The notes under the pieces: generated by a model
Databases searched by the model: none
Seen by the model: only the letters and a program-made list of their open reading frames with translations
Told to the model about the DNA's origin: nothing
From: a virus
IMG/VR virus record: IMGVR_UViG_3300022602_000150
Span: 1-49,641 of that record
Reading direction: 5' to 3' (one strand)
Length of the DNA: 49,641 bases
Part shown: piece after piece, positions 1 to 33,332 of the stretch
Layout: each line of letters starts with the position of its first letter
Numbering within the stretch: position 1 is the first letter of the stretch
Translations under genes and position numbers: made by a program

Positions 1-165
1 GTTGGCTTTCTCCGAGTCTGGATGATTGGCCACGGCGAGGTATCTCTCGAAGAAGCTGAGCTGATCTGGCACCATATCCCATGTACGACGCAGTATCGTC
101 AGGTTATGCCTGTCGATCGCCTTGGCCAGCATGTGCTGAGGCCAGTCTATCATACCCCTGCTCAC
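1..165 (-). CDS. Unknown protein, N-terminal part only (runs off the left edge)
   Basis: An open frame on the minus strand continues to the window edge, so only about 55 codons are visible. The GTG at 165 overlaps the TGA of the preceding gene (GTGA) and has an AGGGAAGGA ribosome binding site about 8 bases upstream. An in-frame ATG at 153 begins MIDWPQHMLAKAID and is the alternative start, but its spacing to AGGGG is poor. The visible part is soluble-looking, with alternating hydrophobic and charged residues and no signal peptide. It is the last visible gene of the accessory operon that starts at 2840. I do not recognise it. Reading frame confidence is fair; function is unknown. Confidence 0.55.
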   Translation of the reverse strand, partial: MSRGMIDWPQHMLAKAIDRHNLTILRRTWDMVPDQLSFFERYLAVANHPDSEKAN

Positions 166-1031
166 AGCATGAATCCTTCCCTCTTTGGATTGGTGTACAC
201 CATCTTGAACCATCTGCTGGCATCGGCATCCAGCTCCGGCATGGGAAAACCACATGAATCGCGCAGCATCGAGCCAAGCTCCCTGGCGGCATGCTCTGGG
301 TTTGAATTCATCACCGTCGACCACTTGGCTGAGAACCAATCGTAATCGTTTATGTCGGTGTGCCGCACCCTGCGCCTCACCATGTCAGCCATGGCAGATC
401 TGGCACCGAGCATGGCCCACGTGCCGTTGTCGACGTCGCGGCCTATGCTGGCCCATATGGTCAGGCGATTGAGGTTACCCCTCCATATGCGCTTCCATTG
501 TCCGGCGAAATCAGCCAAGGGCTTGCCATCCACGTAGCTCATCTTTATGCCCTCCCTGTATCCGGCTCGCCACGCCTGGTAGGGTGTGCAGTTCTGCACG
601 GTGGTGCTGGCCACCGAATCCACCTGGTAATAGCGTATGTCCCAGCAGAAGTCGGTGGTGTTGCCAGCCTCGTGCGTGCTGCTGGACAGCATGGATCCAC
701 TGTCCCAGATCTTTATGCCGCCGTTGCCATACTCGAGGCCGTTTATGATGTTACGGCTCTTGAAGCTGAGGCAGGCATCCTCCATCCCCGAATCATCCAT
801 CTCGCCGTCCAACCCACCGTCCTCGATCCAGTTGTCGCCGTCCACGGTGACGAACCGCCGTGTGGTGCTGGCGTTGGCGCAGGCCTTGTGCGCGGCATCA
901 AACCCGAGGACGCCGTGCACGCGCTTGGCATGCGGTGCCAGGCTGCACAGCCTCTGCCAGTTGGCGTCGGCGTTGGGCTCGTCGTAGCTGATGAGGAACA
1001 CGTCCACGTCCATCGGCCTAAACGCCACCAT
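162..1031 (-). CDS. Glycosyltransferase-like protein, VDGD family, paralogue A
   Basis: A 289-residue protein. The N-terminal region (about residues 10-70) has the pattern FLISYDEP..A..NW..L, then P.AKRVHGV.G...AH..CA, then VTVDGD at 62-66. The Asp-Gly-Asp at 64-66 sits where GT-A fold enzymes carry the DxD motif that binds a nucleotide-sugar through a metal ion. The next gene upstream (1018-1692) has the same motifs in the same order, so the two are paralogues; this one is longer by about 65 residues at the C-terminus. The start at 1031 has AGGGAGAGG about 5 bases upstream and overlaps the previous stop by 14 bases; ATG 1013 is an alternative. A sugar-transfer role on phage DNA or the host surface is inference. 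Substrate unknown. Confidence 0.6.
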   Translation of the reverse strand: MVAFRPMDVDVFLISYDEPNADANWQRLCSLAPHAKRVHGVLGFDAAHKACANASTTRRFVTVDGDNWIEDGGLDGEMDDSGMEDACLSFKSRNIINGLEYGNGGIKIWDSGSMLSSSTHEAGNTTDFCWDIRYYQVDSVASTTVQNCTPYQAWRAGYREGIKMSYVDGKPLADFAGQWKRIWRGNLNRLTIWASIGRDVDNGTWAMLGARSAMADMVRRRVRHTDINDYDWFSAKWSTVMNSNPEHAARELGSMLRDSCGFPMPELDADASRWFKMVYTNPKREGFML

Positions 1032-1692
1032 GGAACCTCTCCCTGAGCCATTCGAAATCGTTTATCATCCTCAGAGCATCCGTGTCGCCGCGGTTGGCTT
1101 CGAAATATGCGACGGCATCTGAAGCGCCGCGCAGCACGCTGTCAGCGAATGGCACGGGATTGGCCTTCGTGAGCCATGTGTCCAACCTCTGCCTGCTCTC
1201 GCCAGAGTCACCATTGGCGATGTTGTTGCACAGCTTTATGCATTCCCTGAACGCGCTCTTCCATGACTCGTACTCGCTGGTGTTGTATCTGGTGGTGGCA
1301 GGCACCTCATGCATCAGCTTCATGTTGCCAACCGTGGTGGTGAAGTCAAGCCAGGTGCCGTTGAAACCCAACACGGCTCGACGAGGCCACAGCTTTATGC
1401 TACCATAACCATATGCCAACCCGTTGACCGGATTCATGCTGCGCCACACATGCAGGTACCCCGTGTCATAGACGGGAGGTTTGTATGAGAACACGCTGTG
1501 GTCGTCGACGACGGTGTCGCCGTCCACCGTCCAGAACATGTTCGTGAAGCTCAGCTCGGCACAGCGCTTGTGGGCGTTGTGTATGCCCTTGATGCCATGC
1601 ACGCGCCTGGCATGCGGCATGCGAGATGAGAGGTGTTGCCAGTTTAGATCGGCCTCTGGTTCGTCATAGCTGATGAAGAATATATCATGCAT
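1018..1692 (-). CDS. Glycosyltransferase-like protein, VDGD family, paralogue B
   Basis: A 224-residue protein, clearly related to its neighbour at 162-1031. Shared features are FFISYDEPEAD.NW..L at residues 5-21, PHARRVHGIKGI..AH..CA at about 26-44 and WTVDGD at 54-59, with a candidate metal-binding DxD (D57, D59). The C-terminal half is less conserved but keeps an '.NGL.YG.GSIKLW' segment found in both copies. The start lies 3 bases after the stop of the GT8-like gene, with only a weak ribosome binding site, so translational coupling is likely. A GT-A-type fold is inferred from motifs. An alternative is a related nucleotide-sugar-binding protein without transferase activity. Confidence 0.6.
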   Translation of the reverse strand: MHDIFFISYDEPEADLNWQHLSSRMPHARRVHGIKGIHNAHKRCAELSFTNMFWTVDGDTVVDDHSVFSYKPPVYDTGYLHVWRSMNPVNGLAYGYGSIKLWPRRAVLGFNGTWLDFTTTVGNMKLMHEVPATTRYNTSEYESWKSAFRECIKLCNNIANGDSGESRQRLDTWLTKANPVPFADSVLRGASDAVAYFEANRGDTDALRMINDFEWLRERFHGGV

Positions 1693-1695
1693 GGT

Positions 1696-2484
1696 TCAGA
1701 CGCCAACCAATCGTTCGACGCGTTCTATGTATGCATCAACCAGGGCTGCATCGCAGCGATGGTGCACGGGAAGGCGTATGGCCGACCCACCAAGCGTCAG
1801 CTTACCGGCATCGGCCACGTCTATGCCTTGGCCACGCGGATCGTGCTGCATGAAGGTTGGCACGGTGTTGGTGACTCGCCATTCCTCCGCCATGTCTGTC
1901 AGCCTCAATGCCAGGGAGAACGCCAGATCGGTCGTGAGCTCTGGTGGGGAATATCTATAGCTGAGGCATCCCTTTGAGACCATGTCCCAGTCCTTGAACA
2001 CCTGCTCCGCCATCTTGAAGTGCTCATAGACGGCCGGTTTCTTCTTGAAGAACATGAATCCGGCATGCACGTCAGCGAGCTTGCGATCCACGAAGAATGA
2101 CCTAGCATCGTGCCCCACCACGGAGTTGCACATGCAGAAGTCACCGGTTGACATCAGATCCCACCAAGGTTCGATGTCTCTGGTGAACAGCATATCAGCA
2201 TCCAGCTTGATGGTCTCATCATATGGGCTCAGGTATATGGCCTTCCACTCGTTGTGTATCTTACGGGTGTCTGTGGCTGATAGATCTCCCCATGGTATGT
2301 CGATGATGTTATCGAACGCCCAGGCGTATCTATCGGGGACGCGGTCCCCCGGTGTCACGGCTATGCTGAGGGACTTGGCGTTCCGCTGGGTGTGCCGCAG
2401 GCTGATGGCTAGCGCGTATGCCATCCTGACGTAATCGTTGCGGCCGTTGTTCTGCGCGAACGTCAGGAATCCCCGCGAGTTCAT
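1696..2484 (-). CDS. Glycosyltransferase, family 8-like (GT-A fold)
   Basis: A 262-residue protein with a clear GT-A signature: an N-terminal Rossmann-like part (FLTFAQNNG at 6-14; ALAISLR at 24-30; LSIAVTP at 39-45), then 'N.WKAIYLSPYDETIKLDADMLF', with D95-A96-D97 as the DxD metal site. Further on are a 'DVHAGFMFF' strand and a late 'MQHDP' segment that could give the histidine ligand seen in retaining GT8 enzymes. It would transfer a sugar from a nucleotide donor; the acceptor cannot be read from sequence. The start codon overlaps the previous stop (ATGA), with GGAG five bases upstream. It is the second gene of the accessory operon, followed by two VDGD proteins, suggesting one glycan or DNA-modification pathway. 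Confidence 0.72.
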   Translation of the reverse strand: MNSRGFLTFAQNNGRNDYVRMAYALAISLRHTQRNAKSLSIAVTPGDRVPDRYAWAFDNIIDIPWGDLSATDTRKIHNEWKAIYLSPYDETIKLDADMLFTRDIEPWWDLMSTGDFCMCNSVVGHDARSFFVDRKLADVHAGFMFFKKKPAVYEHFKMAEQVFKDWDMVSKGCLSYRYSPPELTTDLAFSLALRLTDMAEEWRVTNTVPTFMQHDPRGQGIDVADAGKLTLGGSAIRLPVHHRCDAALVDAYIERVERLVGV

Positions 2485-2840
2485 TTGAACTCCGAAAAGT
2501 CTGCCACCGATTTGGATGCAGCGTCGTCCGATATCCTCTTGTATTCCACCCTATACATGTTGGTTGCCTCGAAGTATCTCGAGAAGCATTCCTCCATGAA
2601 AGATCCCACATCCTCTATCTCTATGGGATTGCCTATGCTGTCTAACAGCACCACGGTGTCCCTACCCATGCCCTTGAGCATGTGCAGGAAGGATAGCAGC
2701 TCCCTATCGATGTCAAACACACCGCCGCCATGCCTATATCGCAGCATGGCCATGGCGCTGACCCTGACGGCATCCTTGCCGTCCAGCAGATCATTGCGCT
2801 GTTCTATGAAATCAAAGGCTTCTTTGCGTTTGGTGATCAT
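2481..2840 (-). CDS. Unknown 119-residue protein, first gene of the accessory operon
   Basis: A 119-residue protein beginning MITKRKEAFDFIEQRNDLL. It is hydrophilic, rich in charged residues, predicted mostly helical, with no membrane segment and no motif I can name. The start has TAGGAG nine bases upstream. A TTGACT/TATAAT promoter directly precedes it and the predicted transcript start lies only about 16 bases before the ATG. The ribosome binding site is also the right arm of a 9-bp inverted repeat with the end of the preceding late gene (2910-2918), so expression may depend on which promoter made the mRNA. It overlaps the glycosyltransferase by ATGA. Function unknown. Confidence 0.6.
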   Translation of the reverse strand: MITKRKEAFDFIEQRNDLLDGKDAVRVSAMAMLRYRHGGGVFDIDRELLSFLHMLKGMGRDTVVLLDSIGNPIEIEDVGSFMEECFSRYFEATNMYRVEYKRISDDAASKSVADFSEFK

Positions 2841-2847
2841 GGATCAA

Positions 2848-2918
2848 GGCTCCTACCGTTAGATTATACGATAAAAGCTGGTTAAGTCAAACCCAGATGC
2901 GGATGGTCAGTAGGAGCC
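2848..2918 (-). promoter_or_regulatory. Inverted repeat that can sequester the ribosome binding site of the 2481-2840 gene
   Basis: GGCTCCTAC (minus strand 2918-2910, the end of the 2907-3848 gene) is perfectly complementary to GTAGGAGCC (2856-2848), which contains the ribosome binding site TAGGAG. The 53-base loop holds the promoter. RNA started at the promoter (about 2856) lacks the first arm; read-through RNA from the late operon has both. This is the kind of logic known for T4 gene e, where only one class of transcript exposes the ribosome binding site. The pairing is seen; the regulation is inferred. Confidence 0.5.
2863..2890 (-). promoter_or_regulatory. Sigma-70-like (early class) promoter of the glycosyltransferase operon
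   Basis: On the minus strand TTGACT (2890-2885), a 16-base spacer and a perfect TATAAT (2868-2863). The predicted start is near 2856, just before the TAGGAG ribosome binding site. Same -35 and following TA as the promoters at 28101, 31475 and 32456. Confidence 0.78.
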
Positions 2919-3848
2919 CAGGCTGTTGGTTCTGGTGTATGCCGGAGGTGACACGCTGACCACACCGGTCGAGGTGTAGGTGTAGACGTTGCTCTGTATG
3001 GTTCCGGTGGATGTCGCCACCACGTTGCCACTGAGGCTGAAGTCGGCCTTGAATGATATGGCGTCGCCGTTGCCACCGTTCTCATGCAGCGCACCCGATG
3101 TGGATGCTGACACGGTGTATGTCAGATATGAGAAGGTTCCAACCCCGACCGTCGAGAATATGGGTTGGTATGTGCCGGTTAGGTTGTAGAAGCCCAAGGA
3201 GTATGTGGTGCCTCCTGTGCCGGTCTGCGTCGTGCCCGTGGCGCCGAACCGTATGGTACCCATCTGGGACAGCATGGCCGTGATGGCCGAGTCAAGTGGG
3301 TAAGACGGGCTGCCTGTCCTCAGCGCGGTGAGCTCTATCTGCCCTCCGGAGTTGAAGAAGAACCTCGCCTGATCCTCGCTGGGGAAGCTGACGGTGAAGC
3401 CGTGGTATATGTCAGCACCCGACCATCCGCCGGTCTTGCCGCTGATGCCAGCCAGTGCCGTGGTCATCTCGGTGGATGCGGCGTTCAGCCTGTTGCCGTC
3501 GAGGTCAGCCAATATGGCTGGTAGGCTGGGGCTTGAATCCGCGGCTATGAGGTTGCCCAACGTCGGAGTTGGGCCCAATCCCAGCAGGCTGCCGGTGTGC
3601 ACGTTCACGTTGCCGATGGCGACATAAAGCTTGTCCCAGTCGCTGGCCAATATCTTCTTTCCGATCTGGGCAGCCGGTATGGATAGGCCTATCTGGCCAT
3701 ATCCCCTGCTGCCGTATCCCACGCCAACCATGGCGGCTATGGCCGCGGAGGCCGCGGAATCGCTTGGATAGGCCGTGTTGGTGTCATTGGCACCCCTGAA
3801 GGTCATGTAATCCGATGCCAAAGCAACGTTGCCTGTGCCGTAGGTCAT
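2907..3848 (-). CDS. Virion structural (tail fibre-type) protein
   Basis: A 313-residue Gly/Ser/Thr-rich protein. The N-terminal part (about 10-100) contains ASDYMTF..AND, a short helix, VGYGSRGYGQ, and 'G.KILASDWDKLY.AI.NVN.HTG'. That layout matches a structural protein of marine T4-like phages, where a 'GYGQ ... I.A..W..L' pattern is conserved. The middle has 'ARFFFNSGGQIELTA', a segment typical of phage fibre and neck proteins. The C-terminus is beta-rich. It is the last gene of the tail block; the start at 3848 has GGGAAGGG inside the end of the preceding gene. The exact place in the virion is unknown; a tail-associated fibre is the best guess. Confidence 0.65.
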   Translation of the reverse strand: MTYGTGNVALASDYMTFRGANDTNTAYPSDSAASAAIAAMVGVGYGSRGYGQIGLSIPAAQIGKKILASDWDKLYVAIGNVNVHTGSLLGLGPTPTLGNLIAADSSPSLPAILADLDGNRLNAASTEMTTALAGISGKTGGWSGADIYHGFTVSFPSEDQARFFFNSGGQIELTALRTGSPSYPLDSAITAMLSQMGTIRFGATGTTQTGTGGTTYSLGFYNLTGTYQPIFSTVGVGTFSYLTYTVSASTSGALHENGGNGDAISFKADFSLSGNVVATSTGTIQSNVYTYTSTGVVSVSPPAYTRTNSLGSY

Positions 3849-3852
3849 GGTA

Positions 3853-5346
3853 TCATGCCCTTCCCAGTAGGACGACCTCTATGAGTTCAACATCATCGGT
3901 GTCCTTGTTGACCAATGATCTCGCGAATGATGAGTCCCTGTCGTTATTCATGTTAGCCATCGCGACACCTGGTGTCCCGCTGGTCACCAACCTCTGGCCC
4001 TTCCTGACAGGTCCGATGACCTTGCAAGGGACCCTGCCCAGCATGGCCACGAACGGATGGGTGGCATCGTCGCCGGCCAACTCGTTCATCCTAACCGCTG
4101 GGTTGGTCGATACCACGCCGAACACACCGCTATCATAGCCAATGGTGGTCGTGGTTATCTCCTTCTCACCGCCCAATATGACCACGTCTCCGGGGCCAAC
4201 GGGGGTGTCGGTCTCATAGCGTTCAGCGACGTCAGCGTAGAATGCGCTGGTGGCCGTTCCTATGAACAGGTTAGCCGTGATGTTGGCGTTGCTGTCTCGT
4301 ATCACGATGGTGCCTGCGACGGCCGCGTTGCTGGTGCCCGATGCGCCAGCTGCGATGGCATACCTCGTGCCCGATGTCGTCACGTTTGATCCAGGTGTGT
4401 TAACCGTTATGTAGAGCTGATTGCCATCAAACTCCAACGCACCGATCTGAGGTGTGGTCAGTATGGAACCGGATTGGAACAGCAACGGTGCCGCCGTGGT
4501 GCTGCCCGTCTTCAGGGTGACCGTACCGTTCAGGTAGCTGGTGCCACCGACGGAGAGGGCATTGTTGGTTACGGTTATGTTGCCCACGCCCAGCTGACCG
4601 CTGACGATTCCGTTTGTGGTGTAAACGGCCGAGAATTGGTACGAGCTGCTGCCCAGGCTGTATTTGTTGGTGGACGACGGTATGTTGTTCTGGCCGTTCT
4701 TGAACGTGGTGGAATCGCCGCTTAGGCCCACCCCTCCGACGTTTGAGTTGAAGTTGATGCCCGGTGATATGGTGCTGAACCCTGCTATTGCGACAGCCGG
4801 TGTGAACGTGGCGTCCTTGCTTATTATGGCGAACAGCGTGCCGCCTATGGTCAGCCTCCAGACCTGATGGTTGATGGATCCATCGGATATGATGGCCGTG
4901 TCTATCTGAGAATATGTTGGCACCGCGGAGTTGATTGGATCGTTGTTGGTGGCGCTGCCCAGGGGTCCAACCAGGTTCCATGTGGTTCCGTTCCACACCC
5001 AAAGCTGCAGATTGCTGCTATCATACCAGAAAGCACCAACGTTGGTGCCGGTGGTGGGTTTGGTGGAAGAAACGAGGACTCCGCCTGCCGCCTGCCAGCT
5101 GTTCCCGTTGTAGATGTTCAGGACTCCGGTGCTGGTGTTATACCAACCCTGCCCTGTCAGAGGCAGCGCTGGCTGAGCCGCTCCGGCGAAGTTGGTCATG
5201 GTCCACAGGATGTCCTCCATGATGGGTTCGCCGTAGTTCTGATAACCCTTGCCGGGGAACTTTAGGCTTGAATGCGTGGTATCTATGGTCCCATCCGCCA
5301 CCGTTGTGAGCAGAGTGCCATCAAATTTGTATATGCTAGTTGCCAT
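3853..5346 (-). CDS. Tail fibre-type protein with the 'DGT...LTGQ.WYN' N-terminal module
   Basis: A 497-residue protein. The N-terminal module (about residues 1-110) reads YKFDGTLLTTVADGTIDTT..SL.FPGKG..NYGE, then a helix, LPLTGQGWYNTSTG.L..YNG and FWYDSSNLQL.VWNG. The same module opens the plus-strand genes at 40236 and 43960. The middle is repetitive beta-structure. The C-terminal 120 residues (FYADVAERYETD..V.PGDVVILGG, VFGVVSTNPA..MN, 'VP.KV.GPV.KGQRLVTSGTPGVA') match a C-terminal domain common in fibre proteins of T4-like cyanophages. A late promoter lies 30 bases upstream and AGGA ten bases before the ATG. Probably a short or whisker-type fibre; receptor unknown. Confidence 0.75.
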   Translation of the reverse strand: MATSIYKFDGTLLTTVADGTIDTTHSSLKFPGKGYQNYGEPIMEDILWTMTNFAGAAQPALPLTGQGWYNTSTGVLNIYNGNSWQAAGGVLVSSTKPTTGTNVGAFWYDSSNLQLWVWNGTTWNLVGPLGSATNNDPINSAVPTYSQIDTAIISDGSINHQVWRLTIGGTLFAIISKDATFTPAVAIAGFSTISPGINFNSNVGGVGLSGDSTTFKNGQNNIPSSTNKYSLGSSSYQFSAVYTTNGIVSGQLGVGNITVTNNALSVGGTSYLNGTVTLKTGSTTAAPLLFQSGSILTTPQIGALEFDGNQLYITVNTPGSNVTTSGTRYAIAAGASGTSNAAVAGTIVIRDSNANITANLFIGTATSAFYADVAERYETDTPVGPGDVVILGGEKEITTTTIGYDSGVFGVVSTNPAVRMNELAGDDATHPFVAMLGRVPCKVIGPVRKGQRLVTSGTPGVAMANMNNDRDSSFARSLVNKDTDDVELIEVVLLGRA

Positions 5347-5376: not shown

Positions 5377-5384
5377 TATTTATC
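5377..5384 (-). promoter_or_regulatory. T4-type late promoter (GATAAATA) before the 3853-5346 fibre gene
   Basis: GATAAATATC on the minus strand, 30 bases before the ATG at 5346. Matches the TATAAATA-type box recognised by gp55-containing RNA polymerase. Confidence 0.7.
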
Positions 5385-5390
5385 ACGCTA

Positions 5391-5984
5391 TCACACCGTC
5401 TGTATCCTGATGGTGTAGACCACCTGTATCTGCCTGTTGAGGCTCTTCTGCACGGGGCTGAATATCACGTGTGATATGAGCAATCCGGTGTCTGGACCAT
5501 TGCTGCCGTAGGCCTTCAGCCCAAGCTCGTTGAACACGTAGTTACCCTGCAGATCTGTCGCCGTGTCAAACGCCTCCTGCCCTGCTGGCTCACCCAGATC
5601 CAGGAAGCAGGTCACTATGACATCGCTGTAGGTGCTGCCGGTGCTGTGGGCGAACTGTATGTAGTTGCTGTTGGGGCTGAGGTTCAAGCCGCTCTGATCG
5701 TTGACCACCTTGTAGTAGGTCTCGTTGTAGAGCTGCGCCGATGTACCCACGGTGTTTGGCGGGAGATAGGTGATTATACCGGTCTCGCTTATGCTGGCAC
5801 CGCCGTTACCAAACACCATCTCCTGTATCCAGCTATCAGGCCTGTTGGCTATGGATCTGGCCAGGCTGATGCTGAAGTTCTCATAGTGTATGGCGTTGAA
5901 CTTGTCCACCAACACCTCACCAGTGACGGCGTCACGTATCAACACATGACCTGTTACGAATTGTTTGTGATCAGATTCCATCAT
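5391..5984 (-). CDS. Virion structural protein (baseplate/fibre region)
   Basis: A 197-residue protein, MMESDHKQFVTGHVLIRDAV at the start, followed by TGEVLVDKFNAIHYENFS, 'ARSIANR.DSWIQEMVFGNGG', and a beta-rich C-terminal half ending in 'QIQVVYTIRIQTV'. The N-terminal 25 residues resemble the 47-residue protein encoded just upstream (6000-6143). The pattern, a short beta hairpin then helix then '.FGNGG', is one I associate with small structural proteins in the tail region of environmental T4-like phages. There is no strong ribosome binding site before the tandem ATGs at 5984 and 5981. It ends just before the late promoter of the next fibre gene. Its place in the virion is inferred from position. 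Confidence 0.6.
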   Translation of the reverse strand: MMESDHKQFVTGHVLIRDAVTGEVLVDKFNAIHYENFSISLARSIANRPDSWIQEMVFGNGGASISETGIITYLPPNTVGTSAQLYNETYYKVVNDQSGLNLSPNSNYIQFAHSTGSTYSDVIVTCFLDLGEPAGQEAFDTATDLQGNYVFNELGLKAYGSNGPDTGLLISHVIFSPVQKSLNRQIQVVYTIRIQTV

Positions 5985-28100: not shown

Positions 28101-28130
28101 TTGACTTATACCAAGCCGCCAAGGCATAAT
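28101..28130 (+). promoter_or_regulatory. Sigma-70-like promoter before gp47
   Basis: TTGACT at 28101-28106, an 18-base spacer, and CATAAT at 28125-28130. It shares GTTGACTTA with the 31475 site. The gp47 ATG is 26 bases downstream of the -10 box. Confidence 0.65.
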
Positions 28131-31532: not shown

Positions 31533-32339
31533 ATGTTCGGTAACGATTCCAATGGTGGGTTCCAACGCAGGAACTGGGAGAGAACCTATCGGGTCGATCT
31601 CGATGCTGTGACCAAGAGGAACCTACACAACTACATGGGACAGGAGCTGCTGTACTACAACTCCATGGTATCAGAGTTTAACAGCAAGGTCAGGGTGCTC
31701 TACAAGGAGATATCCGACATGAAGGATCAGCAGGAGAAGCTGTGGCTGTTGGTCGCACAGACGGGTCAGGACCTGCGTGCGTTGTCAGGGAAACCCACGG
31801 AGGAGTGGCCGGAGTCATTCAGGTCCCATGCCAACATCATAGCCAAGGATGGTAGATTCTCCATATCCGACCGCATGATGATGATATACGACATCGCCGC
31901 GGCCAAGGCCATATTGGATCCAAACGTGAGGCGATCCATAGCGGCGGAGATACTGCGCTGGGTGCAGCCACAGGCCAAGCAGATAGGCATGGCCAACGAG
32001 AGCTCAACCGGGCAGATGAGATCGCCGCTGCAGATGCTGCAGCCCATGGAGATAGAGAACAAGAGGCACGTGCAGCTAAACGGCGATTCAGCCAGGGTGA
32101 CGTACGACCCGGAGCGCAAGGCCACATCCATCAGGATACCCTACTCCAAGCAGGAGATAGTGATAGAGAACCAGGATCTAACCAAGATGCCGCACGATCA
32201 CATAATCATACGGCAGAAGCCCGGCGTGATACCCAAGATGGACACGCCGTGGCAGCTGACCGTCAAGGAGGGGACAGGCAGGTATCTGCTGGATCTGATT
32301 GACATGGTGCCGTATCCCAAGCGCAAGCCGCGCAGATGA
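31533..32339 (+). CDS. Unknown 268-residue protein with its own early-type promoter
   Basis: A well-supported reading frame: GGAGG eight bases before ATG 31533 and a TTGACT/TATACA promoter 29 bases upstream of the start. The sequence begins MFGNDSNGGFQRRNWERTYR. Residues about 35-80 are helical with a short coiled segment ('FNSKVRVLYKEISDMKDQQEKLW'). Residues 95-160 are helical and charged. The C-terminal 100 residues look beta-rich with basic ends ('HIIIRQKPGVIPKMDTPWQLTVKEG', ending KRKPRR). There is no signal peptide, membrane segment, catalytic motif or zinc ligand set. I do not recognise the family. Position after the recombination genes suggests a DNA- or RNA-related role, but this is only context. 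Confidence 0.6.
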   Translation: MFGNDSNGGFQRRNWERTYRVDLDAVTKRNLHNYMGQELLYYNSMVSEFNSKVRVLYKEISDMKDQQEKLWLLVAQTGQDLRALSGKPTEEWPESFRSHANIIAKDGRFSISDRMMMIYDIAAAKAILDPNVRRSIAAEILRWVQPQAKQIGMANESSTGQMRSPLQMLQPMEIENKRHVQLNGDSARVTYDPERKATSIRIPYSKQEIVIENQDLTKMPHDHIIIRQKPGVIPKMDTPWQLTVKEGTGRYLLDLIDMVPYPKRKPRR

Positions 32340-32348
32340 CGGCGGCCA

Positions 32349-32383
32349 AGAAAAAACCGGAACTGTTAGGCGCAGTTCCGGTT
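32349..32383 (-). terminator. Rho-independent terminator (minus strand)
   Basis: Perfect 11-bp stem AACCGGAACTG / CAGTTCCGGTT (32355-32365 and 32373-32383) with a 7-base loop. On the minus strand it is followed by TTTTTTCTT. On the plus strand there is no U-tract, so it works for leftward RNA. Confidence 0.9.
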
Positions 32384-32421
32384 CAAGGCTACATCGTTGA
32401 ATGCCGGCTCAAAGCATCAAC
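32351..32421 (-). ncRNA. Putative small RNA of about 70 nucleotides
   Basis: A complete transcription unit without a gene: promoter TTGACT-17-TACAAT at 32456-32428 (minus strand), a predicted start near 32421 and a strong terminator ending near 32351. The RNA would have a 5' stem-loop (TTGATGC at 32420-32414 pairing with GCATTCAA at 32404-32397, one bulge), about 13 unpaired bases, and the terminator hairpin. It holds no convincing reading frame. It lies antisense to the leader of the 32461-32757 gene and just beyond the 3' end of the 268-residue gene. I do not recognise the RNA family. It could instead be only the promoter and terminator of a decaying gene, but the tight spacing argues for an RNA product. 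Confidence 0.6.
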
Positions 32422-32757: not shown

Positions 32758-33152
32758 GGGATCTACGAGGCACATCATACTCAAACATCATCAAGTTAGG
32801 CACACCATAAGGCTCTCAAATCTCCCCAAGACATAGCGAATAAGACTGCATCATACTGGCTCTAGCATGGTGGTGTGATCCACCCGTGAAAGGATAACGA
32901 ACAGGTTATCACACTCACGACAGGGAACGTGTCCGTGAAGCCCTGGTCCAGGAGAACGGAAGAAAGGATCACAGCCGCCGCCTGTCTGCGCCGCCTGTGA
33001 TGCTCGGATGCCGTCACATGCCGTGCGGCTACCGGGCAGTGTGGTAGACATACCATGACCGAACGTGGGGGTTAGATCCCCCGAGTGCAACACCTCACAT
33101 GCTGGAATTAGGCGTTCCGCCAGCTCGCATAACATGCGCAGGGTGTCACGGC

Positions 33153-33238
33153 ATGACCTATAGACTCATCAGAAGGATCTACATGGCGCGCTCCCCGCAA
33201 GGGGAGTGCTATGACCTCAGATCTATCAGAATGATCTA
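33153..33238 (+). repeat. Two imperfect direct repeats flanking a GCAA-capped hairpin
   Basis: ATGACCT followed by ATCAGAAGGATCTA (33153-33159, 33168-33181) recurs as ATGACCT plus ATCAGAATGATCTA (33211-33217, 33225-33238), 57-58 bases apart. Between them is GCGCTCCCC-GCAA-GGGGAGTGC (33188-33209), a 9-bp stem (one G-U pair) with a GNRA tetraloop. Confidence 0.6.
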
Positions 33239-33250
33239 TAGTATAATATG

Positions 33251-33322
33251 ATGGAAACGTTAGATGATGAAAGAGAAGAGCGCAAGCGATTCGAATTGAA
33301 TCATCTAACTGATGTGCGTTAA
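33251..33322 (+). CDS. Possible 23-residue mini-ORF
   Basis: METLDDEREERKRFELNHLT then DVR, stop TAA at 33320-33322 in the centre of the near-palindrome at 33310-33332; an ATG also lies directly before it at 33248. A TATAAT (33242-33247) overlaps the start region but there is no ribosome binding site. Charged composition looks protein-like, yet the length is too small to be sure. Confidence 0.2.
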   Translation: METLDDEREERKRFELNHLTDVR

Positions 33323-33332
33323 ACGCACATCA
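33310..33332 (-). terminator. Near-palindromic hairpin after the gp26 operon
   Basis: TGATGTGCGT-TAA-ACGCACATCA, a 10-bp stem with a 3-base loop, 21 bases past the stop of the small chaperone-like gene at 33354. There is no U-tract on either strand, so it may be a pause or 3'-end-protecting hairpin rather than a true terminator. Confidence 0.45.

Follow-up and report, generated by a model that had tools for sequence, protein, structure and literature searches.

The closest described systems come from phage T4, in which the long RNAs of genes e, soc and 49, initiated upstream, hide the Shine-Dalgarno sequence (SD) in a helix, and a promoter in or beside the 5′ arm of that helix gives rise to a short, translated RNA (PMC3014915). 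In the case of gene e, late local promoters produce the short RNA, the long RNA that is silenced is an early one, and the reported effect is about 100-fold (PMC3014915). In the same line, the homing endonuclease examples I-TevI, I-TevII, I-TevIII, segB and mobE of Aeh1 are all hairpin-controlled late genes carried on early or middle polycistronic RNAs (PMC2988022). Published examples of the switch amount to a handful of late genes in T4 relatives. A further lead is offered by IS10 and IS50, where the ribosome-binding site of the transposase is covered by a fold in read-through RNA but not in RNA made from the internal promoter, an arrangement that serves insulation; these are the ends of mobile elements, and phage timing plays no part in them.

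The junction described here belongs to an uncultured T4-like virus known from a 49.6-kb fragment (IMGVR_UViG_3300022602_000150, positions 1-49,641; this whole stretch is called the window). The window encodes a gp55-like late sigma factor, an SbcCD-like nuclease, and portal, protease, capsid and baseplate genes. A DNA search of the phage record collection gave no near DNA relative of it, and no Rfam family, tRNA or tmRNA was found in the window. Two other regions of the window deserve a record: about 570 bases at 32760-33330 hold no convincing gene and match no Rfam family, tRNA or tmRNA, with perfect inverted repeats at 33259-33309 and 33310-33332, and a strong inverted repeat at 32354-32384 (AACCGGAACTG/CAGTTCCGGTT), terminator-like on the minus strand, follows the gene at 31533-32339. 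Around the junction, the genes follow each other on the minus strand in the order F, E, a 66-nt gap, D, C, B and A:

5377-5383, minus strand: late-type box ATAAATA, 5′ of the tail-fibre gene F (3853-5346)
3853-5346, minus strand: gene F, tail-fibre-like, matching tail-fibre families
2907-3848, minus strand: gene E, an ORF, last gene of the tail-fibre unit and putative source of read-through
2909-2907, minus strand: TGA stop of gene E
2481-2840, minus strand: gene D, which encodes 119 aa and opens the accessory operon, with its ATG at 2840
1696-2484, minus strand: gene C, predicted GT8-type glycosyltransferase, its start overlapping the D stop (ATGA)
1018-1692, minus strand: gene B, paralogue of gene A
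162-1031, minus strand: gene A, operon member, conserved in relatives

The original prediction spoke of a late structural gene followed by a glycosyltransferase operon, and both labels stand up well. Gene F matches tail-fibre families and carries its ATAAATA box at 5383-5377; moreover, E homologues in relatives are found directly 3′ of a tail-fibre-like gene. The sequence libraries gave no match supporting the glycosyltransferase label, which is nevertheless a fair one on the basis of the predicted structure of gene C: it matches glycogenin (Foldseek, E 1.3e-9), with LgtC also among the matches, and it combines the two traits that define GT8 enzymes, a GT-A fold of the glycogenin/LgtC kind and a DxD motif (in KLDADML), and gene C is accordingly a predicted glycosyltransferase of the GT8 type. 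Gene D has no family model in Pfam, PHROGs or NCBIfam. Its family counts several hundred members in viral contigs, and four query sequences detected no homologue in cultured phage records. The predicted fold of D (pLDDT 89) consists of a long helix, two beta-hairpins with a helix between them, and a second long helix, and shows weak matches to DUF4376-containing viral proteins, from which we claim no function. Three D homologues (L282, L283 and L284) lie on contigs that were assigned to bacterial MAGs (Neomarinimicrobiota RS350, Gammaproteobacteria MED685), probably phage contigs caught up in these bins.

For the E-D junction itself, a switch had been proposed in which the end of E pairs with the ribosome-binding site of D in read-through RNA, with an early-type promoter in the loop. 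The elements found there are the following:

2918-2910, minus strand: distal left arm GGCTCCTAC, the last three codons of gene E, directly before the TGA
2885-2890, minus strand: -35 box TTGACT; TTGAC is conserved at this junction in close kin
2868-2878, minus strand: local left arm GCTTTTATCGT, its position conserved in relatives
2863-2868, minus strand: -10 box TATAAT
2860-2867, minus strand: loop ATAATCTA of 8 nt, holding five of the six -10 bases
2849-2859, minus strand: local right arm ACGGTAGGAGC, containing the SD
2855-2857, minus strand: predicted transcription start, 6-8 nt past the -10 box at the edge of the right arm, placed from the promoter match
2856-2848, minus strand: distal right arm GTAGGAGCC, holding the SD of gene D and perfectly complementary to GGCTCCTAC
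2850-2855, minus strand: Shine-Dalgarno TAGGAG, 9 nt before the ATG

The perfect nine-nucleotide complementarity that takes in TAGGAG is present as proposed, every element lying on the minus strand where it had been placed, and exact GTAGGAGCC-type sites occur only twice in the window, both at this junction. The promoter is indeed found between the two distal arms, as a sigma70-type site that matches 11 of 12 positions with a spacer of 16 (TTGACT-16-TATAAT), and its predicted start at 2857-2855 falls at the second arm. A second, local stem (2878-2868/2859-2849), wholly intergenic and made of 11 pairs, three of them G-U, had been overlooked. No terminator-like site (a GC-rich stem and a T run) exists between E and D, at 2840-2910.

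Computed folding of the window RNAs gave similar energies for the two stems, with -11.7 kcal/mol for the local one and -12.8 when only the nine distal pairs are counted. The ensemble of the longest RNAs tested is divided between the two stems at about 50:50, and either of them hides the SD. The probability that the SD is unpaired was 0.000-0.003 (0.001) in all the read-through RNAs tested and 0.52-0.62 in RNAs starting at 2857-2855, which supports the proposal that the SD is hidden in the former and free in the latter; sequestration of the ribosome-binding site in predicted read-through RNA can be considered well supported. With the SD fixed and the 101 nt upstream shuffled, a Watson-Crick helix of at least 9 pairs covering GGAG arose in 8 of 2000 shuffles, and the local 11-bp helix with G-U pairs in 3 of 2000. 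Each stem alone is thus expected by chance a few times per thousand, and a reader scanning 49 kb will meet such things, so it could be argued that the two stems arose by coincidence and that D is expressed from its own promoter with no role for either of them. We regard this as highly improbable and already disfavoured: the D start shows the only significantly stable upstream fold among the 27 gene starts of the window (z -2.67, p 0.017), and relatives whose sequences differ also have a structure at this position.

Those relatives had to be reached indirectly. Direct searches with the D, C or E proteins of the window found almost no kin, and the neighbour gene at 5391-5984, used as query, led to 39 loci. 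Around 10 of them, plus L002, keep the E-D junction, with D proteins 35-40% identical to that of the window. D alignments were used next in three scans that yielded several hundred confirmed relatives each, the best 80 of each being retained, and after near-duplicates were dropped 124 non-redundant D starts remained. The arm sequences of these junctions differ and the layout is the same, the loop containing a promoter and the right arm containing the SD or lying next to it, as seen in the hairpins CAATCGC-tagataa-GCGATTG (L009/L037) and CAATCGT-atgacata-ACGATTG (L007) or in the arm pairs CTCGTGA/TCACGAG (L005), AATCTA/TAGATT (L003) and AACTCCACTTG/CAAGTGGAGTT (L002). In the window's kin, the loop region carries TTGACW-17-NANNNT, the TTGACW standing exactly 17 nt before NANNNT in close kin while the spacer varies, and the left arm overlaps the -10 box, so that RNA from this promoter lacks the left arm.

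The comparison changes which stem matters. The original prediction expected both arms to be conserved, and what relatives keep is a hairpin with the promoter in its loop, whose left arm lies between the genes, over part of the promoter; for the arm within the end of E, the relatives examined offered no counterpart. That the E-end/SD stem by itself constitutes the switch is therefore unlikely, even though it is a perfect nine-base-pair match, rare among shuffles, and takes up about half of the read-through ensemble. Its left arm consists of the last three codons of E, which a ribosome covers whenever E is being finished, and a simulated ribosome at the E stop abolished the distal stem and left the local one at 0.99. 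It is the local stem that matches the position and layout of the hairpins in relatives, and the distal one is an auxiliary, alternative partner of the SD. Relatives that keep the operon and lose the complementarity, an outcome that would speak against the switch, were looked for and are not the general case.

At the level of the whole set, the region from -52 to -4 of the D starts folds more stably than its shuffles, with a mean z of -2.49 and p≤0.05 in 68 of 124 cases (p≤0.01 in 48), compared with a mean z of -0.28 for control gene starts of the same loci (p≤0.05 in 6 of 52, p≤0.01 in 1 of 52; Mann-Whitney 1.2e-9). The controls were required to have an SD-like motif and a gap of 40-110 nt, and their base composition may differ from that of D leaders, which shuffling corrects in part. 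Because the sequences are related, these p-values are inflated and not fully independent, and the conservative test is the one at cluster level: when D proteins are clustered at 60% identity, the median p is ≤0.05 in 6 of 11 clusters (Wilcoxon p 0.0024), two of these six owing their signal to a separate terminator and not to an SD hairpin. An earlier statistic compared the pairing of -16 to -6 with shuffles confined to the upstream part and gave a weaker signal (30/124), because the stem ends at the edge of the SD in many kin; the whole-fold statistic was adopted after that result, so its choice is partly post hoc. Moreover, removal of the upstream RNA raises the computed SD accessibility from 0.26 to 0.56 at D and from 0.56 to 0.67 at controls (p 5e-9). 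The signal is uneven. Significant folds occur in only 12 of the 49 members of the largest D cluster, close kin such as L004, L008, L012 and L045 fold weakly, and in the L007-like group the stem ends at the GGAG edge and leaves the SD partly open in read-through RNA (0.4-0.7).

Sigma70-type sites are found in the short region upstream of D in 53 of the 124 cases, against 6.8 in shuffles, and the class of promoter inside the hairpin varies among lineages. A second, large lineage (L205, L206, L089, L116 and others) has a late-type AAATA box in the loop, up to 19 pairs and clear covariation; in most of the L205/L089 cases, CATAAATA or TATAAATA lies at -33, as in a T4-type late promoter. Six pairs changed on both sides in this late-promoter lineage (score 0.246, reached in 0 of 500 shuffles, with slid versions at ≤0.155), and among the window's own close kin covariation is thin, with one compensated pair. 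The left arm in the late-promoter lineage starts no more than a few bases away from the E stop, where a terminating ribosome could open it. Since the palindromes sit on the core promoter, the usual place of an operator, a dimeric repressor bound around the -10 box might be imagined to shut the promoter at the DNA level. This reading is quite unlikely in view of arms that are almost completely different between lineages and still pair, of frequent G-U pairs, which RNA tolerates and a DNA palindrome does not, of the variable loop length and of a right arm that tracks the SD.

In a third set (L121, L162 and L187), TTGACA and a TATAAT-like -10 box are found in the loop of long stems. At L075:5950-6003, L121:5950-6003 and L162:3950-4003 a T run directly adjoins the right arm that holds the SD and precedes the ATG, so these hairpins are possibly intrinsic terminators with a promoter in the loop. 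True terminators are also present at the same place in related viruses: distant kin insulate D by a terminator and then a promoter, with a TATAAT-like site after the terminator in L025, L029 and L032. In L100, L106, L107, L108, L113 and L118 the terminator is strong (GCCAGTT...AACTGGCTTTTTTT-like) and separate, and a late-type TAAATA box comes after it, just 5′ of D, a combination that is an alternative form of insulation. Extending termination to all the hairpins, with the hiding of the SD as a by-product, is improbable nonetheless, as the stem lacks a subsequent T run in the window and in most of its close kin and the right arm runs into the SD and the start codon. Part of a marine group with TTGACA-17-TATACT showed no convincing hairpin.

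Altogether, a promoter-in-hairpin translational insulator at the D start is the best explanation, and we hold it with reasonable confidence from sequence comparison and computed folds. RNA entering from the tail-fibre genes would contain the left arm 2878-2868, which would fold onto 2859-2849 and hide the SD of D, with the end of E (2918-2910) supplying a second, competing partner. RNA from the promoter in the hairpin would start within the right arm, lack both left arms and leave the SD free, so that D would be translated only from its own promoter. Hiding D should lower C as well, since C starts inside the stop codon of D. In the window phage and many relatives, the D operon is probably translated from internal-promoter messages only, and not from tail-fibre read-through. 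The pairings, the accessibilities, the promoter matches and the conservation are shown here by computation, and we infer the occurrence of read-through, the early use of the promoter and the change in translation.

Compared with T4 e, soc and 49, the mechanics are the same, with an SD predicted to be paired in the long upstream RNA and to open once a local promoter gives a short RNA devoid of the 5′ arm. The parallel originally drawn with gene e thus stands for the SD-hiding hairpin with its local promoter, and the promoter classes are reversed: the local promoter of the window is sigma70-type and not a late one (TATAAATA), which is found in the L205/L089 lineage instead, and the long RNA would come, not from early or middle genes, but from genes that look like tail genes with a late-type box. 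With both promoter class and long-RNA class reversed, the junction lacks two defining features of the T4 e/I-TevI class and keeps its mechanics. The controlled genes also differ from gene e, and the homing endonuclease cases share the layout of hairpin, promoter and SD, of which the window would be the reverse, with no endonuclease or intron at its junction. To IS10 and IS50 it is alike in insulation.

A sigma70-type promoter downstream of genes with a T4-type late box makes it likely for the window that D is expressed from early-type transcripts and stays silent when late transcription reads through. The SbcD-like gene is also preceded by a sigma70-type promoter with TTGACT (28101-28130, 10/12), and its T4 counterpart is early or middle, which fits early use of such promoters without proving it. 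Early on and late off is a plausible description of the window, resting on promoter class and late-looking upstream genes, and not a general rule. Since the lineage with the strongest hairpins carries a late promoter there, the shared function resembles an insulator against upstream transcription more than a clock for early and late expression; what the lineages share is a D gene cut off from transcription upstream and dependent on its own promoter. In pelagimyophage genomes, cassettes rich in GT8 enzymes have been described next to tail fibres, with a proposed role in modification of the host surface (PMC7029224), and early expression of such enzymes would make sense. In a fuller version, the junction would be a T4-type switch of reversed polarity: owing to a host-type (early) promoter within the SD-hiding hairpin, a surface-sugar operon would be translated from early transcripts only and would be silent on late read-through, with sister lineages using a late promoter in the loop or a terminator instead of the hairpin, and with insulation being what is selected. 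This version is put forward tentatively, its chances being slightly below even.

What is new is that one junction would carry this switch in many uncultured T4-like phages, where the hairpin is maintained through changes of promoter class and elsewhere gives way to terminators. The junction may in this way be regarded as a natural experiment on what selection protects, which appears to be insulation from neighbouring transcription. It also gives a sequence rule that may help, in uncultured phages, to locate where transcription starts and which operons are under separate control, among them the glycosyltransferase cassettes that adjoin tail fibres.
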